Assembly (NCBI RefSeq): GCF_003667345.1
Contig: NZ_RCWF01000005.1
Coordinates: 1 to 64,000 of the forward strand
From: Poseidonibacter antarcticus
Lineage (GTDB): Bacteria > Campylobacterota > Campylobacteria > Campylobacterales > Arcobacteraceae
DNA: 64,000 nucleotides
Direction of reading: 5' to 3'
The notes under the pieces were generated by a model. The model ran no database searches, was not told the origin of the DNA, and worked only from the letters and a program-made list of their open reading frames with translations. Both the position numbers and the translations under genes were made by a program. This document shows, in pieces, positions 45,432-56,997 of this stretch (position 1 is the first letter of the stretch; each line of letters starts with the position of its first letter).

Positions 45432-46361
45432 TTAGATTAGGTTTAACTCTTCACTTATGTCTTTGATTAGTTTTGATAATGGGCGTTTGTGTAAATCTTC
45501 TTCTTTTTGATAGTTTCCTAATAAATATCTATAAATTTCATCTTCACTAAATCCAAAATTTTTTTCTAATTCTTCTATATATGACTTTGGATAATATGCT
45601 TTTTTCATAAGTAAATCAATAACTATATCTTTGTGTTGTTTGTATAGTTCATCTAGTTTAAAAGTTTCTATATTTTTATTACTATTTTTAAATTCTATTT
45701 CAAAACTATTTGTATCATATTTTTTACTATCAATTTGCGTAAAAGATATATCAGTAGGTTTGTATGTAAATTTAAAATCATTCTCCTTAATATCATAAGG
45801 GTTAATCAAATCATTACTAATTTTACTACTTTTTGTATGATTACAAATAGGACAACTAGGAATTAAGTTATAAAAACTCATAGCTAAAAAAGGATATATT
45901 GATTTTGGATAAAAATGGTCTATTTCAGGTCGTAATTTTCCACTATCTTCATCAACTGTAAAAGTATAATTTCTATTACAATAAGGACAAGTTTTTAAAT
46001 CTAAGGACTTTACAAATTCATAAGTATTATATTGAACTTTTCTACTTCCCCAATTATTATATTCTTTTTCAAAAATTTCATCTCTTATAATTTTATACAA
46101 AGGCTTCCAATCTTCTTTCTTTTGATTTTCAATTCCTATAGAGTTTTCATAATTATTCTTAAAATGATTAATATATACTTTTAATTGTTCATTATTCGCT
46201 TTTAAAATATCTTTTAAATTATTCTCAATATATTCTAAACAATTTTTATCTATGCTATTTAATCCTGTCTTATTTATTCCAATAATTAAATCTTTTAATT
46301 TTGAATAAGTTTGATTAATATGCTTATTCAAAAGTTCTTGATTAATATTAATTTTAATCAT
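45432..46361 (-). CDS. ptuB: HNH endonuclease, PtuB-like (Septu)
   Basis: 309 residues. The N-terminal half is helical; the centre is a zinc-stapled HNH domain: CPYC at 125-128, the metal-binding D148-H149 in RPEIDHFYPKS, N165 and CPIC at 170-173. This layout matches the HNH proteins of Septu (PtuB), also found as effectors of Ec78-type retrons. No reverse transcriptase is nearby, favouring Septu. It overlaps the ATPase gene by eight bases. Nuclease action on phage or host nucleic acid is inferred from the family. Confidence 0.78.
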   Translation of the reverse strand: MIKININQELLNKHINQTYSKLKDLIIGINKTGLNSIDKNCLEYIENNLKDILKANNEQLKVYINHFKNNYENSIGIENQKKEDWKPLYKIIRDEIFEKEYNNWGSRKVQYNTYEFVKSLDLKTCPYCNRNYTFTVDEDSGKLRPEIDHFYPKSIYPFLAMSFYNLIPSCPICNHTKSSKISNDLINPYDIKENDFKFTYKPTDISFTQIDSKKYDTNSFEIEFKNSNKNIETFKLDELYKQHKDIVIDLLMKKAYYPKSYIEELEKNFGFSEDEIYRYLLGNYQKEEDLHKRPLSKLIKDISEELNLI

Positions 46362-47856
46362 TTCTTAACTTCTTTAATTCTTCTTCTAATTGTTTTATTT
46401 TTTCTTCTTTAGAGATAGGAAATCTTTCATCATACATTCTTAAAAGTTTTTCTCTTAAAAAGTCTTCTCCTATTATTTTAATAATAGGCTTTATTTGATT
46501 TATTGGTATATCGATAAATTTATTTTTACCATTAAGAAAGTTTAATATTTTAGATATCTTATTTTTTGCAAACTCACCCATAAGTCCATCTTTCATAAAA
46601 AATCCATGAGAAAGTAAAGTATGAATATTTGCTCCAAAAGTTTGTTGATTATCTTCAAAAGGATAAACTTGTTTTCCTTTTTCTAAGAAAATTACATTTT
46701 CTTTTGGTAAATCTGAAAGGATGAATGGAGAATGTGATGTTATTATCAAGTGAATATCTTTTTTATAATTCTTATAAATGTTTAATAATTGATTTACATA
46801 CTTTTTCTGCCAATTTGGATGTAAAGTTGTATCTGGTTCATCAATTAGAAAAAAAGCATTTTCTTTTCCTTTAGATTTTGAATGATTTTTATTAATATAC
46901 ATCAACAGTAAAAAATGATTATAGAAATTTCTTTCTCCTTGCGAAAACTCACTAAAACTTATATCTTTTTCATTATAAAAATCAATATCTAAGTACTCTT
47001 GTATTGCCAATTCAAAAAATATCTTTATTTCATCTAAATTATTTACAAATATTTTTTGATTATATTTTAATTTAATAAATAAATCTTTTTTTTCTTTTAA
47101 TTTATTAATTATGTCAATATCTATTTCTTCATTAGTTAAACTTTCAATAATTTCATCAATCTTTAAATTACTATTACTCATATCTAAATTTGAAATTTTC
47201 ATATAAATTGGTCTAAAAAAAACATTTAAACTAATTAATTCATCTCTTAAGATATATATTAAAAAATTTGAAATATGTTTATATTTTTCAATATTAAAAA
47301 TCTTATTGTTATTTTCAAGATACTCTTTTTTAAATGAGAATCCATAATTTGTCAAATCATCAAAGAATTTAAGTATATCTTTGTCTTTAAAATTTTCTTT
47401 TGCAAAATCAGTATCATAGATTATTGTTCTAAGTTCATATTTCTTTTCAATATTATCAATATCTGCATATAATGTATAATTAACTTTTTCATAATTATTA
47501 TTAAGAATAATTATATGTTTTTTAGTATTTAAATTTAACAATATATATTCTTCATTCTTATAAAAAAGAAGAAATACTATATTATCATTTATTGTTGATT
47601 TTGGACCATAAGGTAATAATTCTAAAATACTACTCTTTCCACTCCCATTTTCACCAACAATAGCAGTCACATTTATATTATCAGGAAAGATACTCACATA
47701 ATCTTTTTTTTCTTTTATGATTAATTCACAATTATCTTTTAATTTTCCTTCATCATCATATTCATCTTTAAACTCACACTCAAACCTAGGCGAAAAATTA
47801 AATCCTTGTTTATGTATATTTTTATAATCCTCAACCCATAAATAAACTAATTCCAT
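46354..47856 (-). CDS. ptuA: AAA/ABC-type ATPase, PtuA-like (Septu)
   Basis: 500 residues. Walker A is GENGSGKSS (68-76), the signature is SQGER (about 305) and Walker B is FFLIDEPDTTLHP (about 335), followed by the switch histidine in ITSHSPF. This is the OLD/RecF-like ABC ATPase type used in Septu PtuA. A charged helix (EEKIKQLEEELKKL) closes the protein. It is the first gene of a two-gene unit with ptuB. Its insert between Walker A and signature is long and AT-rich, with no recognised domain. Flanking genes are unrelated, fitting an accessory cassette. Confidence 0.78.
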   Translation of the reverse strand: MELVYLWVEDYKNIHKQGFNFSPRFECEFKDEYDDEGKLKDNCELIIKEKKDYVSIFPDNINVTAIVGENGSGKSSILELLPYGPKSTINDNIVFLLFYKNEEYILLNLNTKKHIIILNNNYEKVNYTLYADIDNIEKKYELRTIIYDTDFAKENFKDKDILKFFDDLTNYGFSFKKEYLENNNKIFNIEKYKHISNFLIYILRDELISLNVFFRPIYMKISNLDMSNSNLKIDEIIESLTNEEIDIDIINKLKEKKDLFIKLKYNQKIFVNNLDEIKIFFELAIQEYLDIDFYNEKDISFSEFSQGERNFYNHFLLLMYINKNHSKSKGKENAFFLIDEPDTTLHPNWQKKYVNQLLNIYKNYKKDIHLIITSHSPFILSDLPKENVIFLEKGKQVYPFEDNQQTFGANIHTLLSHGFFMKDGLMGEFAKNKISKILNFLNGKNKFIDIPINQIKPIIKIIGEDFLREKLLRMYDERFPISKEEKIKQLEEELKKLRND

Positions 47857-48729: not shown

Positions 48730-49518
48730 ATGAAAAGTTTAAAAAAAACAGTAGGTATAGCAGTATTTAGTTTAAGCATACTATTTCCACTACATTTGTT
48801 TTCAGATACGTTAAAAATAGCTACAGATGAATGGTGTCCTTATGATTGTTTGAAAGGACAAAATGATGGAAAGGTTGGTTATTTAGGTGATTTATTAGTT
48901 GAAACTATGAAAGCAAGAGGTCATAAAGTTGAGTTTGTAGAGGTTAATTATACTCGTGGTTTAGAATTGGTTCGAGAGGGGAAATTAGATGGTACGATGG
49001 CTTGTTTTAGAGAAGAAGCACCTGATTTTATTTTTCCAGATTTTCCACTTGGAAAAAGTAACAGCACCTTTTTTACCCTTAAAAACTCTTCTTGGAAATA
49101 TACAGGAACCCAATCACTTAAACAAGCTAATATGATCGGCGTGATTGATGGTTATGATTATGTTGATCCAACTGTGATGGAGTATCTTAATAAAAAACCA
49201 AATAATGTTTTAGCAATGAAAGGTGAAAAACCATTAGAAAGATTGTTAGAGATGTTAATTAGTGGCAGAATAACTACTATTGTTGAAGATAAAAGCGTTT
49301 TGGAATATAAAATCACACAAATGGGTAAAGCAGATTTAATAAAAGTCTCTGGAGTAACAAACGCAGTTATTGATGTTTTTGCTAGTTTCTCACCAAAGAA
49401 AAAGAGCTCAAAAGAGTATGCTAAGATTCTTTCAGAAGAAACTATAAAAATGCGAGAAGATGGGCGGTTGCAAATTCTTTTAGACAAATATGGAATTAAA
49501 GACTGGCAATCTAAGTAA
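48730..49518 (+). CDS. Periplasmic substrate-binding protein, family 3, no transporter
   Basis: 262 residues: signal peptide (about 1-26, ending LFS) then an SBP_bac_3 domain beginning LKIATDEWCPYDCLKGQNDGK, with VGYLGDLLVETMKARGH and REGKLDGTMACF. Two cysteines in WCPYDC may form a disulfide. No permease or ATPase adjoins; the next gene, ten bases on, is a membrane diguanylate cyclase. This suggests a receptor role rather than uptake, which is inference. AGGGG precedes the ATG. Confidence 0.82.
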   Translation: MKSLKKTVGIAVFSLSILFPLHLFSDTLKIATDEWCPYDCLKGQNDGKVGYLGDLLVETMKARGHKVEFVEVNYTRGLELVREGKLDGTMACFREEAPDFIFPDFPLGKSNSTFFTLKNSSWKYTGTQSLKQANMIGVIDGYDYVDPTVMEYLNKKPNNVLAMKGEKPLERLLEMLISGRITTIVEDKSVLEYKITQMGKADLIKVSGVTNAVIDVFASFSPKKKSSKEYAKILSEETIKMREDGRLQILLDKYGIKDWQSK

Positions 49519-49528
49519 AAATTTGATT

Positions 49529-50773
49529 ATGAACTCTCTATTAAAACGTTTTCGCCAAAGTATTGCTTTACATCTATTGACTACGATTTTTGGCTTTTAT
49601 TTTTTAGTTGCAGTGGTGGTAACAGTTGTTCAACTTTATAAAGAGTATGAAGATACTAAAATTAATTTTTATAAAGAGATTCAAACCTTACCAGCTACTT
49701 TTAATCGAGGTATTATAGACTCAGTTTGGACTTACAATAATGAATTATTGCAATCTATTTTACTTGGTATGTACAATTTGCCAATAATAGTTGGGATTAA
49801 AGTTGAATCTCTTGATCATAAAATGGATTTACAAATTGGAACTGTACTCAATGAAAAAGATGAAATAACTTATTATGATTCTTCAGGAAGAGTAACGGAA
49901 CAAAAAGAGTTTGGTTTTGGTACTGATACATTATTTAAACATGAATTCCCCCTGCAATATCAAGGAACAAGTTTTGATCATAAAATACCTTTAGGTCAAG
50001 TTACATTATACTCTAATAATCAATTGGTATTTGATCGGGTTAAATATGGTTTTATTCTTATTTTAATCAATTCCATCATTAAAACAATTGCACTTTGGTT
50101 TATTATCTTTTATTTTATAAAAAAATATCTAGGACAACCTTTGAAAGAGTTTACAACTAAAATACGTGAACAGGATGTGCAGTCTCCTCAAGCTATTGAT
50201 TTAAACCTTCATTGGACAGATACAAATGAACTCTTAATATTAAAAGATAGTTATAACCATATGATTCAACGTTTAAATGAGCACAAGCTCCTTAGCATTA
50301 CAGATAAGCTTACTGGACTATTCAACAGGCTAAAACTTGATGAATCACTTAATAATGAGTTTAATCGTAGTAATCGCTTCAAAAGAAGTTTCGGTATCAT
50401 CATTATAGATATTGATTATTTCAAAAGGGTCAATGATACCTATGGTCATCAAGTTGGAGATCAAGTACTTATTCAATTTGCCAAAATACTTAAAGAAAAT
50501 ATACGTAAAGTTGATATTTTAGGACGCTGGGGTGGGGAAGAGTTTATGATAATATGTCCAGAAACTAATTTTCAGGGTACTATAAAACTAGCTCAATCAC
50601 TTCGTAAAATAATTAGCAAATATGATTTTCCAAACATTGGAAATTTTAGTGCAAGCTTTGGAGTATCTATCTATAATAATGATGAAAATATAGATAAAGT
50701 TATTGCACGTGCTGATAATGCTTTATATAAAGCAAAAGAGAATGGTAGAAATAGAGTTGAAGGTAAGCAATAG
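49529..50773 (+). CDS. Membrane diguanylate cyclase with periplasmic domain
   Basis: 414 residues from ATG 49529 (an in-frame ATG at 49490 lies inside the previous gene). Membrane segments at about 13-35 and 170-192 enclose a periplasmic domain of roughly 135 residues with GIIDSVWTYNNELLQSILLG. A linker with HAMP-like features leads to a GGDEF domain (about 250-414): RWGGEEF active site and, five residues before it, RKVD, an inhibitory RxxD site. It should make cyclic di-GMP with product feedback. The adjacent binding protein is its likely periplasmic partner. Confidence 0.87.
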   Translation: MNSLLKRFRQSIALHLLTTIFGFYFLVAVVVTVVQLYKEYEDTKINFYKEIQTLPATFNRGIIDSVWTYNNELLQSILLGMYNLPIIVGIKVESLDHKMDLQIGTVLNEKDEITYYDSSGRVTEQKEFGFGTDTLFKHEFPLQYQGTSFDHKIPLGQVTLYSNNQLVFDRVKYGFILILINSIIKTIALWFIIFYFIKKYLGQPLKEFTTKIREQDVQSPQAIDLNLHWTDTNELLILKDSYNHMIQRLNEHKLLSITDKLTGLFNRLKLDESLNNEFNRSNRFKRSFGIIIIDIDYFKRVNDTYGHQVGDQVLIQFAKILKENIRKVDILGRWGGEEFMIICPETNFQGTIKLAQSLRKIISKYDFPNIGNFSASFGVSIYNNDENIDKVIARADNALYKAKENGRNRVEGKQ

Positions 50774-50804: not shown

Positions 50805-51683
50805 TTATTTAGCAATATTTTCAAATGCAAATTTTCTAAAGGATTCAAAGATAATATTCTTGAATTTATTTTTGTGATAAATCATATACGTATTTCTTTC
50901 AAACTTCATATTAATAATATCAATTTTGTATAATTTATTAGAACGAATTTCGGTTTCCACACTTTTCGCTGGTAAAATAGAAATTGCATTTTTATGCTTT
51001 ATGAGTAGTTCCTTTATAGATACTGTATGTTCAAGTGCCAATGTGATATTTAGATCTGATTTCACATCTCCTAAATAATCAAAAAAAGTTTGAGTAACTG
51101 CTGAAGATATTTCTCTTACTATCCATTCTTTATCAAATAATTGATCAATATAAAAACTTTTTTCTATAAGAGATTTATCTGAACTCACAACAATAAGTTC
51201 ATCTTTATAAAGTAATTCCTTTACAATATCTTTATCAAAAAGTTCAAATTCAATAAATCCAATGTCCACTTTACCTTCATTAATCAAAGAGATAATATGA
51301 TTAGGTTCTGGATATAAATGAGTAATATTTATATCCTTATATAGTTTCTTATAATCATATAGAACATCAGCTAAAACATAGGCGCCTATTGTGTTTGAAG
51401 CTGCAACATTAATATTTCCCGAAAATTTATTCTGGATAAATCTTTCTTCAAATCCTTTTAATTGTAATAATATAGGAGTAACTTCTTCATATAATGCTCT
51501 ACCCCTTTCATTTATGATTAATTTTTTACTTATTCTATCGAACAACTTTTCATTAAATTCTTCTTCAATTGATTTGATAGCCATAGAAATACTTGGTTGA
51601 GTTAAATTCATTTTTTCAGAAACTTTTGTTAATTTTAATAATTTTGCAACGTTTACAAATATATCCATCTCTCTTATTGTCAT
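50805..51683 (-). CDS. LysR-family transcriptional regulator
   Basis: 292 residues: winged-helix N domain (MTIREMDIFVNVAKLLKLTKVSEKMNLTQPSISMAIKSIE) and a LysR substrate-binding domain. ATG 51683 gives the usual family start; TTG at 51698 is the alternative. It lies at the downstream end of the importer/ureohydrolase operon on the same strand, with its own AT-rich promoter region. It probably controls that operon in response to the transported compound. Confidence 0.87.
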   Translation of the reverse strand: MTIREMDIFVNVAKLLKLTKVSEKMNLTQPSISMAIKSIEEEFNEKLFDRISKKLIINERGRALYEEVTPILLQLKGFEERFIQNKFSGNINVAASNTIGAYVLADVLYDYKKLYKDINITHLYPEPNHIISLINEGKVDIGFIEFELFDKDIVKELLYKDELIVVSSDKSLIEKSFYIDQLFDKEWIVREISSAVTQTFFDYLGDVKSDLNITLALEHTVSIKELLIKHKNAISILPAKSVETEIRSNKLYKIDIINMKFERNTYMIYHKNKFKNIIFESFRKFAFENIAK

Positions 51684-51709
51684 TTTTAGTTTATCCAATT
51701 TTGGTCTTT

Positions 51710-51892: not shown

Positions 51893-52684
51893 CTATACAA
51901 TTCCACTATTTCGTTCAGACCATGTGCTTAAAAAACTTTTTAATTTTTCTGATTTTGGTTGGCTAAAAAGTATTTTTGGATTGCCTTGCTCTTCAATTAA
52001 ACCATTTGCAAGAAAGACAACCTTATCTGAAACTTTAGCTGCAAATCCCATTTCATGTGTCACTATTACCATAGTCATACCATCTTGAGCAAGTGATTGC
52101 ATTACTTTTAATACTTCACCTACTAACTCAGGATCAAGTGCTGAAGTAGGCTCATCAAATAACATAATTTTAGGCTCAGTACCTAATGCTCTTGCAATTG
52201 CAACACGTTGTTGTTGCCCACCTGATAATTGTTCTGGATAAGCATCCTTTTTATGTAACATATCCACTCTTGTAAGTACTTTTACTGCTCTTTCCTCGGC
52301 TTCTTTTTTACTTAAACGATTAACTCGTAATAGTGGAGACATAACATTTTCAATCACACTCATATGTGGCCATAGATTAAACTGTTGAAAAACCATACAA
52401 ACTTCTGCTAAATCTTCTTGTATAACATTACTTGGTAATAGTTCTAAATTACCTAAAGAATCCGAACCATAACCTATTAGTCTCCCATTTATTAATACCT
52501 CACCTCCATCGTACTGTTCAAGGAAGTTCATACATCTAAGCATTGTACTTTTCCCAGATCCCGATCCTCCAATAATACAAACCACTTCTCCATAATTGAT
52601 ATCGAGATTAATTCCTTTTAATACTTCGTTATCGCCAAAGTGCTTTTTTAAATTAATAAGTTTTATTGCTTTTTGTTGTGACAT
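51893..52684 (-). CDS. Polar amino-acid ABC transporter ATPase
   Basis: 263 residues of the HisP/GlnQ type: Walker [14 protein letters not shown], signature [15 protein letters not shown], Walker [21 protein letters not shown]. It carries a family-variable insert after residue 80 ([19 protein letters not shown]), as seen in HisP-like arginine/histidine ATPases. Last gene of the five-gene importer operon. Confidence 0.9.
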
Positions 52685-52711
52685 GATTATAACTCCTTCT
52701 GAATTCTTAAA

Positions 52712-53377
52712 TTAGCTGCGTTGCAAATGAATAGTAGCTCGATTTTCACACCAAGAACCAATTTTTGCGACAATAAATGTAATACACCAGTAAGCTACAG
52801 CTAAAAACACATAAGGTTCAAGCATACTAAATGTTTCTGTTGCCATGGTAACTGCTGATGTTGTGAGTTCAGCTACTGTAATAATAGAAAGAATTGCAGA
52901 TTCTTTAATTAAAATGATAGTTTGATTAATACTTGGTGGTAAAATCAAACCCAACATCTGTGGTAGTTGAATATGTATCAAAATTTGGGCACGCGAATAA
53001 CCTAAATCTTCTGCTGCCTCAATATGTCCTTTAGGAATGCTTTCAAATCCTGAGCGAAATATTTCAGTAAAATAAGCTGCACCATATAAACTCAGACCTA
53101 AAATACCCACCTGTTCTGCTGTTAATTCTAATCCAATAAATGGACCACCATAATAGACTAAATAAACTTGAACAAGCAAAGGAGTACCTCTGAACACATT
53201 TAAATATATAGAATAAATCAAACGAGTAATAAGCAAATTAATTCTATTAATACGATAGAGTATTAATCCTCCAATAAGAGCCAAAAATATACCTATTGAG
53301 CAAATGTAAAGAGTAAATAAAAGTCCTTTAAGTAATAAAGGCCAATAAGTAATGTAAAGACTTAAATCCATTTTCAT
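52712..53377 (-). CDS. Polar amino-acid ABC transporter permease
   Basis: 221 residues with five membrane segments and the family loop HIEAAEDLGYSRAQILIHIQLPQMLGLILPP. It pairs with the permease encoded just upstream (six bases away). Both resemble HisM/HisQ-type subunits that carry basic amino acids and opines. Confidence 0.88.
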   Translation of the reverse strand: MKMDLSLYITYWPLLLKGLLFTLYICSIGIFLALIGGLILYRINRINLLITRLIYSIYLNVFRGTPLLVQVYLVYYGGPFIGLELTAEQVGILGLSLYGAAYFTEIFRSGFESIPKGHIEAAEDLGYSRAQILIHIQLPQMLGLILPPSINQTIILIKESAILSIITVAELTTSAVTMATETFSMLEPYVFLAVAYWCITFIVAKIGSWCENRATIHLQRS

Positions 53378-53383
53378 AATCTC

Positions 53384-54034
53384 CTAATGTGTTGTTAAAC
53401 GGGATTCGATATAACGTCCCAAAATTGTAATACAAGAAGTAAGGAGTAAATACAATACCGCTGCTGAAACAAAAAATTCAATTGGACGATAGGTTGTTGA
53501 TGAATAAACTTGCGTAATTCGCATTAAATCAGTTACTGCTATTGTTGAAATAAGTGCAGAGTTCTTAATGATATCAATCGTTTCATTGGTTAATGATGGC
53601 AGTGTTTTTCTTAATACTTGCGGTAATTCAATGTAATATAAACATTGAAAAGCTGTGTAACCATAGCTCCAAGCTGATTCTTTTTGACCGTGTGGGATTG
53701 ATTGAAATCCCCCACGTAAAATTTCAGCTTGGAATGCTGCTGTGTTCATTGATAATGCAATAATTGCAGCCAAAACTGATGGTATATTTATTCCCCAATA
53801 TGGTAAAAAATAAAAAACAATCGTCAATTGTACTAGGATAGGCGTCCCTCTTATTGCACTAATATAAAATCGGCAGATAAAATTAATGAAAGCATGAGAA
53901 GATAAACGACCTAGACATAAAAAAATACTAAATACAAATCCAATAAGAATCGATAGCAAGGATATCCAAGTGGTCATCCATAGCCCATTTAGTAAAGAAT
54001 CAGTATGTTCAAATACAACACTAAAATCGAACAT
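53384..54034 (-). CDS. Polar amino-acid ABC transporter permease
   Basis: 216 residues, five membrane segments, with the loop GQKESAWSYGYTAFQCLYYIELPQVLRKTLPSL. It starts one base after the ureohydrolase gene stops. It forms the heterodimeric channel with the following permease. Confidence 0.88.
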   Translation of the reverse strand: MFDFSVVFEHTDSLLNGLWMTTWISLLSILIGFVFSIFLCLGRLSSHAFINFICRFYISAIRGTPILVQLTIVFYFLPYWGINIPSVLAAIIALSMNTAAFQAEILRGGFQSIPHGQKESAWSYGYTAFQCLYYIELPQVLRKTLPSLTNETIDIIKNSALISTIAVTDLMRITQVYSSTTYRPIEFFVSAAVLYLLLTSCITILGRYIESRLTTH

Positions 54035-54035
54035 C

Positions 54036-54983
54036 TTAAACCCTATCTTTACGCTTAGCTAATGATTCAGCAGTAACACAAAGTAATTCAAACATCATAG
54101 TTGCACCCACTAATGCCGTTGCACCAGATGGATCAAAGGGAGGTGAAACTTCAACAACATCTCCTCCAACTATATGTAAACCTGTTAAACCACGAATCAG
54201 TTTAATTGCTTCAAATGTAGTAAAACCACCAACTTCAGGTGTCCCTGTACCAACTGCAAAAGCAGGATCTAAACCATCAACATCAAAAGTAACATAAGTA
54301 GGTGTATTACCAATTAGACTGTGAACTTCAGATAAAATACCTTCAATACCTAATTCATAAAATTCATCCATATAGATAACCCTCATACCACTATCATGAC
54401 TAAATTTCCAAATATCCTTGTGATTGACTGAACCTCTGATACCTATTTGAATAGTTTTTTTAGGGTCAATTAAACCTTCTTCAACCGCAACTCTAAAAGG
54501 AGAACCATGATGAAATTTAGATCCTAAATAGTGTCCACCAGTATCACAATGAGCATCAAAATGTACTAATGCGATAGGACTATTTTTAGCAAGGGCCCGT
54601 AAAATTGGTAGACTGATGGAATGATCTCCACCTGCTGAAATTGGGAGTACTCCTGCTTCAACAACTTTTTCAAAAAAATCTTGAATAGATCTGTGGCTTC
54701 GTTCAAGCTCAAATGGACTTTCAGGTAACGCATCACCAACATCAGCAACTTTACATAATTCAAAAGGTGAAATATCTGTACTTTGGTTAACAGATCGCAT
54801 TAGACTTGATTGATTCCGAATTTCTCGAGGACCATGTCTTGTACCCGTACGGTTAGTTACTCCACCATCAAAAGGAACACCAATCAATCCAATGTCAATT
54901 CCTTCTAATGATTCTTCATAAGGACAGCGCATAAAAGTAGCAATCCCACTATATCGAGGTAATTGTTGTTGGTCTTGACTCAT
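54036..54983 (-). CDS. Arginase/agmatinase-family ureohydrolase
   Basis: 315 residues of the binuclear manganese (or nickel) ureohydrolase fold. All metal ligands are seen: H121 in GGDHS, D143, H145 and D147 in HFDAHCD, D234 and D236 in TFDVDGLDP. The N-terminal segment LPRYSGIATFMRCPY and RTGTRHGPREIR resemble guanidinobutyrase and guanidinopropionase more than arginase. The enzyme releases urea from a guanidino compound: agmatine, 4-guanidinobutyrate, 3-guanidinopropionate or guanidine itself are all possible. It is encoded inside an importer operon, so the imported ligand is probably its substrate. Codon use looks more G+C-rich than in neighbouring operons. Confidence 0.86.
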   Translation of the reverse strand: MSQDQQQLPRYSGIATFMRCPYEESLEGIDIGLIGVPFDGGVTNRTGTRHGPREIRNQSSLMRSVNQSTDISPFELCKVADVGDALPESPFELERSHRSIQDFFEKVVEAGVLPISAGGDHSISLPILRALAKNSPIALVHFDAHCDTGGHYLGSKFHHGSPFRVAVEEGLIDPKKTIQIGIRGSVNHKDIWKFSHDSGMRVIYMDEFYELGIEGILSEVHSLIGNTPTYVTFDVDGLDPAFAVGTGTPEVGGFTTFEAIKLIRGLTGLHIVGGDVVEVSPPFDPSGATALVGATMMFELLCVTAESLAKRKDRV

Positions 54984-55876
54984 TATAGTTCCTTATCTGC
55001 AGGAGTAGGTATATATCCCGTTGGAAAATCCATTGTAAATCCGAACCATTTCATTTGTAGTTCCGTTAACTTACCACTTTTGTGTAATTTTTCTATTCCA
55101 TCACTAAAAAATTGTACTAAAGTAGCTGATTCAGAATCTTTTCTACCTATCCAAGCATAATAAGCATCAGGACCAAAAACGGGTTGTACAATCTCAAATA
55201 TATCTGGACGTTTTTTAACTACTGCAGCTAAGTTTGGTAGTGCTTGTGGCACAATGTCTACTCGTCTTGATGCTAAAGCGGTATAAGCTTCATTATAGTC
55301 AGTAAATTTTTTAATATTTTTATACCCTTTCTTTGAAAGTTCAGCCTTTTCATATATCTTTATTGCACCTAGTTGCTCTGAACCACCTTGTATCCCAAGA
55401 GTCATACCTGCCATATCTTTTGCTGAAGTGATACGCTTATCACCTTTACGTTTTAAGATAGCAAGTGATGCTGTTGAAATTGGATAAGTAAAGGCATATT
55501 TAGTCATTCTATTTTTGCTTATCGTTAATGTTGTTGCTACAAAATCATAACGTTTTGCACTAAGCCCAGATAAGATTCCTTGAAAAGGCAAATCCAATTG
55601 AGTTAACTTTACTCCTGGTAAATCTTTTAAAATTTCATCTAAAATATCTTTACCATAACCAACAATCTTTCCATCTTCAAGCATTTCAAAAGGAGCGTAA
55701 CGAGCTTCAGTAGCAATAACTATCTCCCCTTTTGCCTTAATCTCTTCAAGTAAATCAGCTTGAACAGTATGAGTAAAAGCAGTGCATGCTAGACTTACCG
55801 TCAATAACGTTCTCTTAATAGGTTTTGTTAACCCAACTTTATCTGCCATCACATTCATTAAATTACTTTTCTTCAT
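54983..55876 (-). CDS. Polar amino-acid-type periplasmic binding protein
   Basis: 297 residues: an unusually long N-terminal region with a signal peptide (hydrophobic part about 24-38, cleavage after VQA), then an SBP_bac_3 domain starting IVIATEARYAPFEMLEDGKIVGYGKDI. It is the first gene of the importer operon. The ligand is expected to be a guanidino compound because the ureohydrolase gene follows with a one-base overlap. AGGAG precedes ATG 55876. Confidence 0.88.
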   Translation of the reverse strand: MKKSNLMNVMADKVGLTKPIKRTLLTVSLACTAFTHTVQADLLEEIKAKGEIVIATEARYAPFEMLEDGKIVGYGKDILDEILKDLPGVKLTQLDLPFQGILSGLSAKRYDFVATTLTISKNRMTKYAFTYPISTASLAILKRKGDKRITSAKDMAGMTLGIQGGSEQLGAIKIYEKAELSKKGYKNIKKFTDYNEAYTALASRRVDIVPQALPNLAAVVKKRPDIFEIVQPVFGPDAYYAWIGRKDSESATLVQFFSDGIEKLHKSGKLTELQMKWFGFTMDFPTGYIPTPADKEL

Positions 55877-55918
55877 TTTAATATCTCCTGTTTTTTTAAT
55901 AAACTCTCAAGTAATGAA

Positions 55919-56083
55919 TATATAAACTATACAATATAAGGATATATAAACTATGCAGAATTATATCAAATTAAATAATAATTAGTATACAAATCATTTA
56001 TCAAATAAATTTATATAAACAATCAATAAATTTTATTTGTTTATATATTTATTATTTTCTATAATTCAAAGATATATATAAAC
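55919..56083. repeat. Five copies of TATATAAAC in the importer operon promoter region
   Basis: TATATAAAC occurs at 55919-55927, 55943-55951, 56012-56020 and 56075-56083 on the plus strand and at 56039-56047 on the minus strand. The first two continue as TATATAAACTATACA and TATATAAACTATGCA, starting 24 bases apart. Copies three and four face each other as an inverted repeat. They fill the gap between the divergent binding-protein and DMT transporter genes. Likely regulator sites; the LysR protein is the obvious candidate. Confidence 0.6.
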
Positions 56084-56142
56084 TAGTCAGAAAAAATATA
56101 AAGTCCACTATATAACCAATCTCTTAAAAACAAAGGAAAACC

Positions 56143-56997
56143 TTGCATTTAAAAGCTATTTTGATAACAATATTAGGAGTATTACTTATGAGTCTAGAAA
56201 CAGTTTTTATGAAAGTAACTTCTATTGAGTCAGTTACATTTACATTTTATATTGGTATTTTTATGTTTTTAAGTTTAAATATTATTTTATTGATAACATT
56301 AAAGAAAAAAACAATTTCAGTATATAAAGTAAGTCTAAAACCAATTTTGATGTGCGGTTTTATATTGGGGATATCAATTATTTTTTTTGTTAGTGCAATT
56401 AAAACAACAACCGTTGCAAACACTGTTTTCTTACTAGCTTCTTCCCCTTTATTTTCTGCTTTTTATTCATATTTATTTTATAAAGAAAAAAGCAAAAAGA
56501 ATATTTATATTGTATCTTTTTTTATTTTTCTTGGGCTAGGTGTGATTTTCTTTTCCCAATTAGGTAGTGGTGACATGATGGGTAATATTTATGCACTTAT
56601 TTGTACAAATTTTTACGCTTTATATTTTGTAGTACTTTCAAAACACAAAGCAGCCAATAGATTTGCAATTATTTCATTTGGAGGTTTCATCGCTGCAACT
56701 ATATCTTTTTTTCTTGCAAGTAGTTTTGTTATTGATATGAGTACTTTGATGATTTTATTATTAGCAGGTCTTTTAGTGGTTCCTATATCAAGAGTTCTTA
56801 TCTCTGCTGGAACACAACATTTACCCGCTAGTGAAGTTACTTTATTGTTGACTTTAGAATCTGTAGCTGCACCATTTTTTGTTTGGTTGATTTTAAAAGA
56901 AGTTCCTTCAAATGGTACTTTTATAGGTGGTTTGATTATAGTATTAGCTTTATTTATAAACTCTTTATACTTATTAAAGGTATCTAAAAATACTTGA
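56143..56997 (+). CDS. DMT-superfamily (EamA) transporter
   Basis: 284 residues with ten membrane segments in two EamA repeats of five (VANTVFLLASSPLFSAFYSYLFYKE in the first, PASEVTLLLTLESVAAPFFVWLILKE in the second). These carry metabolites such as amino acids, often outward. TTG 56143 with AAAGGAAAA upstream. It diverges from the importer operon and shares the TATATAAAC region. Confidence 0.85.
   Translation: MHLKAILITILGVLLMSLETVFMKVTSIESVTFTFYIGIFMFLSLNIILLITLKKKTISVYKVSLKPILMCGFILGISIIFFVSAIKTTTVANTVFLLASSPLFSAFYSYLFYKEKSKKNIYIVSFFIFLGLGVIFFSQLGSGDMMGNIYALICTNFYALYFVVLSKHKAANRFAIISFGGFIAATISFFLASSFVIDMSTLMILLLAGLLVVPISRVLISAGTQHLPASEVTLLLTLESVAAPFFVWLILKEVPSNGTFIGGLIIVLALFINSLYLLKVSKNT

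Follow-up and report, generated by a model that had tools for sequence, protein, structure and literature searches.

What does an amino acid importer take up when a ureohydrolase gene lies within its operon? This question is raised by positions 51,893 to 55,876 of a 64,000-nucleotide stretch of the Poseidonibacter antarcticus genome (the whole of this stretch is hereafter called the window), where five genes encode an ATP-binding cassette (ABC) importer of the polar amino acid (PAAT) type together with an enzyme of the arginase fold. An earlier examination of the letters alone, here called the sequence-only reading, had proposed that a guanidino compound is imported and then cleaved to urea. 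This idea gains support from a creatinase encoded near a sister transporter, from the loss of an aspartate in the binding protein, and from a carboxylate-capping arginine in the enzyme. Import of a guanidino acid and its cleavage to urea is, on these grounds, the probable class of function of the operon.

In the mechanism that we propose, the periplasmic binding protein would bind an external guanidino acid that carries a carboxylate and lacks an alpha-amino group, and the ABC transporter would bring it into the cell. In the cytoplasm, the operon's own ureohydrolase would then split the guanidino group to give urea and the corresponding amino acid, and a urease whose genes lie at another place in the genome would free ammonia from the urea. 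The operon itself would have come by horizontal transfer, with a Psychromonas-like gammaproteobacterium as the donor.

An importer operon with a ureohydrolase as its second gene

The five genes are as follows.

54983..55876, minus strand: binding protein of solute-binding protein (SBP) family 3, PAAT-type ABC importer (297 amino acids; Pfam SBP_bac_3, 2e-26)
54036..54983, minus strand: ureohydrolase of the arginase fold, predicted short-chain guanidino-acid amidinohydrolase (315 amino acids; Pfam Arginase, 3e-88)
53384..54034, minus strand: ABC permease 1 (PF00528, 4.9e-20; TIGR01726, 96.8 bits against a cut-off of 42.2)
52712..53377, minus strand: ABC permease 2 (PF00528, 1.1e-19; TIGR01726, 81.4 bits against a cut-off of 42.2)
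51893..52684, minus strand: HisP/GlnQ-like ABC ATPase (PF00005, 1.3e-33; HisP model, 313.7 bits, below the equivalog cut-off of 466)

Transcription runs from 55876 to 51893 in the order given, with a 1-base overlap between the binding protein and ureohydrolase genes and gaps of 1, 6, and 27 bases thereafter. Both the coordinates and the Pfam and NCBIfam matches agree with the tightly spaced, single-strand gene set, its enzyme gene second, that had been described previously. By the same two databases, the set holds what a PAAT importer comprises, namely an SBP_bac_3 protein, two TIGR01726 permeases, and one ATPase.

Relatives of the enzyme were taken as the best 80 of 573 loci in the named genome collection. 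The exact five-gene order occurs in seven of these loci (L004-L007, L013, L016, and L019), and again at a further locus, L155. Because the same five genes recur in the same order in other genomes, the arrangement is not due to chance. At L008, the enzyme gene adjoins an ABC set that is 39% identical, and the ureohydrolase gene lies next to its LysR gene.

A binding protein family that partners with unrelated hydrolases

Alignment places R123 of the binding protein at the position of Arg77 in the lysine/arginine/ornithine-binding protein (LAO), and A212 at the position of LAO Asp161 and of Asp157 in the glutamine-binding protein (GlnBP). Also kept are an acidic residue, E57, and two aromatic ones, Y60 and F98. 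From the LAO and GlnBP structures, we take the arginine to bind a carboxylate and the aspartate to hold an alpha-amino group. With the arginine kept and the aspartate replaced by alanine, the protein appears to fall outside the pattern of alpha-amino acid binders.

The phylogeny of the binding proteins points to the same class of ligand. Those linked to ureohydrolases (clade A, support 89/90) and those linked to creatinases (clade B, 97/97) are sister groups (A plus B, 94/98), and the window protein is sister to the creatinase-linked clade and not within it. The pocket motifs of A and B are nearly identical, with Ala versus Ser at the Asp161 position and a difference in the GSxQ/GAPQ loop. The closest binding proteins outside ureohydrolase operons, at 60-64% identity, are encoded on Klebsiella and Raoultella plasmids. 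On the Raoultella plasmid, the neighboring protein annotated as M24/aminopeptidase P is a creatinase (best match 1CHM, E 8.4e-181), and the Klebsiella plasmid copy is 94% identical to it. Sister binding proteins adjoin a creatinase at L106, L112, and L140-L143, and the same creatinase arrangement is present in four Pseudomonadaceae genomes.

Two observations on these plasmids deserve separate mention. At L112:4527-10922 and at L106, the ABC importer divergent from the creatinase gene is annotated only as amino acid transport. Within the plasmid collection, 277 Klebsiella plasmid records match the binding protein, not all of them of the creatinase type.

A third and more distant group of binding proteins (about 42-49% identity) is accompanied by an M20 hydrolase of the hydantoinase/carbamoylase type and a DUF1989 protein. 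Such operons were seen at L107, L104, L139, L142, L144-L148, and L162-L167, and most add a cupin/helix-turn-helix (PuuR-like) gene. They are candidates for a route by which guanidino or ureido acids are processed without release of urea; the two enzymes may act in turn, deiminating the guanidino group first and splitting off the carbamoyl group afterward. The deimination step is suggested by the carboxyguanidine deiminase function that we understand to be attributed to DUF1989-related proteins.

Yet another enzyme occupies this niche in a few operons. In two Marinobacterium loci (L011, whose contig stops after permease 2, and L014), a second ureohydrolase gene is inserted between those of the binding protein and the first enzyme. 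This second type, whose nearest solved relative is the agmatinase 1WOG, lies at L014:7024-8004 and in the same ABC operon of L011. On the R. beringeri plasmid (L108), the ureohydrolase differs from that of the window and is of the kind inserted in Marinobacterium; at L108:9872-10852, this 1WOG-nearest type is the sole ureohydrolase seen.

The partnership is consistent where it was surveyed. A single search of 398 Pseudomonadaceae genomes found the binding protein at 19 places in 17 genomes, and across all of its matches every place had one of these enzymes (3 ureohydrolase, 4 creatinase, and 12 M20 plus DUF1989). Among 369 sampled genomes of the class to which G010 belongs, two match: G010 itself, of the ureohydrolase type, and G778, which has M20 plus DUF1989 together with a 56% identical ureohydrolase. 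Binding protein relatives below about 42% identity (L109-L111) have no such hydrolase adjacent, and thus the link between importer and hydrolase is limited to the closer family. The proposed class of ligand draws its strongest support from this swapping of unrelated enzymes, all of which have guanidino or ureido groups as their targets.

A broader interpretation can be put forward tentatively. One ABC importer family may be a general scavenger of guanidino acids (those of animal phosphagens and of the creatine type), with an intracellular hydrolase that has repeatedly been replaced by one of an unrelated fold; the versions would be the ureohydrolase, the M24 creatinase, the second ureohydrolase, and the pair of DUF1989 protein and carbamoylase. 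Taken furthest, this idea would make the window enzyme either a creatinase of the ureohydrolase fold or the guanidinoacetate hydrolase (EC 3.5.3.2) for which a gene has been lacking; to our knowledge, no sequence has been assigned to that activity.

The ureohydrolase and its active site

The enzyme is a confident member of its family (PF00491, 296.4 bits against a cut-off of 22). Its best solved relative is the 3-guanidinopropionase GpuA of Pseudomonas aeruginosa (PDB 3NIP, E 1.1e-116), followed by the guanidinobutyrase GbuA, PAH, and E. coli SpeB. Identities are 57.8% to GpuA, 44.6% to GbuA, 43.7% to E. coli SpeB, 39.9% to PAH, and 31.8% to the guanidinase GdmH. Several assignments were set aside, among them PAH and GbuA; against GbuA stand the modest identity and, in loop 1 of the window enzyme, a Tyr at the Met161 column. 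The arginase RocF model gives 93.2 bits against a cut-off of 227.6, and the formiminoglutamase HutG model gives 107.5 against 229.15. The sequence-only reading, which had favored a GpuA- or GbuA-like enzyme over arginase and had named a formiminoglutamase as an outcome that would overturn it, holds on both counts.

The metal ligands H121, D143, H145, D147, D234, and D236 and the catalytic E278 are invariant in all 80 relatives, so that the complete set of metal ligands noted earlier is confirmed. Three further columns of the alignment, each likewise uniform in 80 of 80, bear on the substrate. R63 stands at the position of GbuA Arg72, where an arginine caps the neighboring active site and can contact the substrate carboxylate (PMC9772407). 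Neither E. coli SpeB nor the SpeB-like protein L013_3721 has this arginine. Y152 corresponds to GpuA Tyr157, a substrate-recognition residue (PMC10833137), and Thr248 occupies the column of Trp305, a specificity residue of guanidinase (PMC11410670). Taken together, the active-site residues favor a guanidino acid and speak against agmatine and guanidine.

The ureohydrolase tree that had been suggested as a check gave a divided answer. By identity, GpuA is the nearest of the reference enzymes, but the window enzyme lies outside the GpuA clade, being excluded by the group of GpuA, L102, and L110 (support 100/100, and 96/85 in a second tree from which ten rows, mostly long branches, had been removed). 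A single group uniting the two clades is not rejected by the approximately unbiased test (p-AU 0.378). The clade of the window enzyme consists mostly of marine proteobacterial proteins and stands apart from GpuA and from its 86% identical plasmid relative, L102. In the reduced tree, the side branch closest to the window enzyme contains the enzymes from L103-L105 and L148, and for two of these (L104 and L148) the gene comes last in an operon that has the same ABC family. The GdmH rows are separate from the window enzyme.

Distribution and probable acquisition of the operon

Three features flank the five genes.

50805..51698, minus strand: LysR-type regulator, 194 bases downstream of the ATPase gene on the same strand (90% identical in L155)
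56143..56997, plus strand: EamA/DMT transporter, divergent from the operon (80% identical in L155)
55877..56142, no strand assigned: intergenic control region with three copies of ATATATAAACTA, candidate regulator sites

Two of the three ATATATAAACTA copies are 24 bases apart, and that pair is partly conserved in L155. The window LysR is merely 24% identical to the divergent LysR of the Psychromonas operon at L004.

Among the 80 best relatives, the closest enzymes come from Psychromonas (87%, 87%, and 81% identity) and Amphritea (79%), all within the same five-gene order. At a threshold of E 1e-60, the enzyme gene was not found in the nine other genomes of the genus, whose long matches to it are at most 36% identical. 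Across the family, 2 of 104 genomes have it, counting the genome from which the window comes. The second of these (G813, which carries locus L155) belongs to a different genus and holds seven genes as a single block, with identities of 89% for the enzyme, 77% for the binding protein, 89% and 90% for the permeases, and 91% for the ATPase, in addition to the LysR and EamA values listed above. Seven window proteins from further out have no match within the stretch of the G813 block. The unit is thus larger than previously described, because the LysR gene and the divergent EamA gene travel with the operon in L155.

Base composition sets the five genes apart from their surroundings. The guanine-plus-cytosine (GC) content is 34.2% in the operon and 27.9% in the window as a whole, whose richest 4-kb stretch begins at 52000. 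By the same measure the LysR (24.7%) and EamA (26.7%) genes look native. In their trees, the enzyme and the binding protein of the window both nest with those of Psychromonas and Amphritea. This nesting, the contrast in GC content, and the occurrence in 2 of 104 family genomes support transfer from a Psychromonas-like donor, and the operon (75-87% identity) was probably acquired from such a gammaproteobacterium. The G813 block supports a later movement of all seven genes between genera within the family.

Weighing the proposal

Urea from the predicted reaction would not lack an outlet. It had been noted that no urease lies nearby and that the fate of the product is open; at the level of the genome the fate is not open, given a urease alpha subunit encoded on contig C3. 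Across 14 of the typed operon-bearing genomes, urease is present in 10 of 10 of the ureohydrolase type and in 4 of 4 of the creatinase type. This co-occurrence fits a role in nitrogen supply, although it is weak statistically.

Several observations weigh against the interpretation offered here. The urease backgrounds are 50%, as measured for the genus (5 of 10) and the Psychromonas family (12 of 24), both of which include operon-bearing genomes. Loop 1 of the window enzyme reads CDTGGHYLGS-KFHHG, whereas that of GpuA reads SDTNDRYFGDNPYTHG; the GpuA sequence NDRYFGDNPYTHG is not matched by GGHYLGS-KFHHG. The window loop is one residue shorter and has Gly149 for Asn154, with glycine in 76 of the 80 relatives. 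Since the loops differ, GpuA activity is not simply transferable. The NCBIfam agmatinase equivalog TIGR01230 scores 190.8 bits against a cut-off of 174.3, which accounts for the agmatinase label applied by annotation pipelines; we regard this as a formal score that does not prove activity. The predicted structure of the binding protein has a mean pLDDT of 54.7 (from 7 sequences), too poor to use, and its pocket residues are assigned by sequence alignment only.

Two further points concern physiology. For 70 of the 80 best enzyme relatives, the flanking sequence retrieved, cut short in several cases by the end of the contig, shows no such ABC transporter, and thus the usual role of the enzyme need not depend on this importer. 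In genomes that lack the transporter, ten neighbor proteins were scanned and offered no clue to metabolism; among them were a cobalamin adenosyltransferase, AcnX, asparaginase II, a family-5 SBP, and a methyltransferase. In addition, the methylmalonate-semialdehyde dehydrogenase equivalog was not found over its cut-off in the window's genome, which leaves beta-alanine unsupported as a carbon source.

Candidate substrates

Among guanidino acids, those with short chains are the most likely substrates. We consider 3-guanidinopropionate, which would yield beta-alanine, and guanidinoacetate, which would yield glycine, to be the leading candidates, each on its own still doubtful and to the same degree. 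Creatine and 4-guanidinobutyrate are less likely.

Creatine merits discussion because of its sister transporters, but it is an improbable substrate. In this scenario, a creatinase of the ureohydrolase fold would replace the M24 creatinase served by the same transporter and would release sarcosine and urea. The sister binding proteins adjoin an M24 creatinase and share nearly identical pocket motifs, a search of the window's genome, run without a positive control, gave no match to M24 creatinase, and, speculatively, the change from Asn to Gly in loop 1 could fit a methyl group. However, human AGMAT released no urea from creatine (PMC9772407), and neither did a comammox guanidinase (PMC11410670). 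The Asp161 position and the GSxQ/GAPQ loop also set the two types of binding protein apart. No SoxB-type sarcosine oxidase scores over the cut-off in the window's genome, in G813, or in the two closest Psychromonas genomes. Over the 14 typed genomes, SoxB passes the cut-off in 8 (6 of 10 of the ureohydrolase type and 2 of 4 of the creatinase type), so it does not separate the types; its lack in the four genomes just named weakly disfavors sarcosine as a useful product.

Agmatine or another guanidino amine is less probable again. The enzyme would then be an agmatinase and the importer would feed polyamine synthesis, as the TIGR01230 score and the automatic speB/agmatinase annotation of plasmid relatives would suggest. 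Against this stand R63, conserved in all relatives but missing from the two SpeB-type proteins; the carboxylate-binding arginine of the binding protein; another agmatinase-like gene in the genome (L002); and the creatinase that adjoins the sister transporter. Human AGMAT also shows that an agmatinase label can mask a guanidino-acid hydrolase (PMC9772407).

Uptake of arginine with arginase-like cleavage to ornithine and urea is very unlikely. It would suit the polar amino acid importer type and the weak similarity of the binding protein to arginine/lysine/ornithine-binding proteins, but the arginase model falls far below its cut-off, the aspartate for the alpha-amino group is lost, and the genome has a separate arginase-like gene (L003), next to one whose product we take to resemble ornithine cyclodeaminase.

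Free guanidine, which the sequence-only reading had kept in play and for which Synechocystis has ABC importer genes alongside a guanidinase that also belongs to the ureohydrolase superfamily (PMC12186494), is scarcely credible here, given the low identity to GdmH, Thr in place of the guanidinase Trp throughout the relatives, no guanidine riboswitch in the window at the Rfam gathering score (six tRNAs are the sole Rfam matches), and no nickel-chaperone gene in the operon and flanks that were read.

Other features of the window

The six tRNA genes form a cluster at 565-1197 on the minus strand. At 48730-50773 on the plus strand, a gene for a weak family-3 SBP overlaps one for a GGDEF protein, so labeled from its sequence as read by eye; the former is probably a periplasmic sensor partner of the latter. 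At 45432-47856 on the minus strand, genes for an AAA ATPase and an HNH-like protein match the PADLOC candidate defense system PDC-M62A/B (E 5e-119 and 3e-75), and their matches to Septu PtuA/PtuB are weaker.

Comparison with known systems

In searches of an open-licence library, we recognized no description of this operon or of an ABC creatine importer of this family. A bacterial creatine transporter described in PMC8864220, CreT, is an MFS protein. Precedents exist both for operons that combine an ABC importer with a ureohydrolase, in the case of guanidine (PMC12186494), and for guanidino-acid hydrolases. If our proposal is true, it would supply a class of ligand for an importer family that is labeled merely as amino acid or glutamine transport, the Klebsiella plasmid copies included, and would set apart, within the proteins called "agmatinases", a group of probable guanidino-acid hydrolases. 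The binding proteins of the three operon types should then bind related ligands.

The enzyme resembles GpuA in its fold, its metal ligands, the counterpart of Tyr157, the carboxylate-capping arginine, and its overall identity, but departs from it in its altered, shorter loop 1 and in its separate clade. The 86% identical GpuA-like gene on plasmid pF061_1 adjoins an APC permease and not an ABC importer. The closest parallel to the transporter is the creatinase-linked importer of Klebsiella and Raoultella plasmids and of Pseudomonadaceae, which shares a 61-62% identical binding protein, the importer type, and urea as a product. It differs in that its M24 creatinase gene is divergent and lies behind its LysR gene, and in that a DMT transporter gene follows the ATPase gene.

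The Synechocystis GdmH operon likewise unites an ABC importer with a ureohydrolase and frees urea inside the cell. However, GdmH belongs to another subfamily, is nickel dependent and served by chaperones, is under riboswitch control, and acts on free guanidine (PMC12186494). Human AGMAT is another ureohydrolase mislabeled as an agmatinase, in which an arginine at the same position shapes the use of acid head groups, but it is a mitochondrial enzyme of the GbuA side without a linked importer (PMC9772407). Against this background, it is plausible that the operon of the window is a nitrogen-scavenging device related to those already known.

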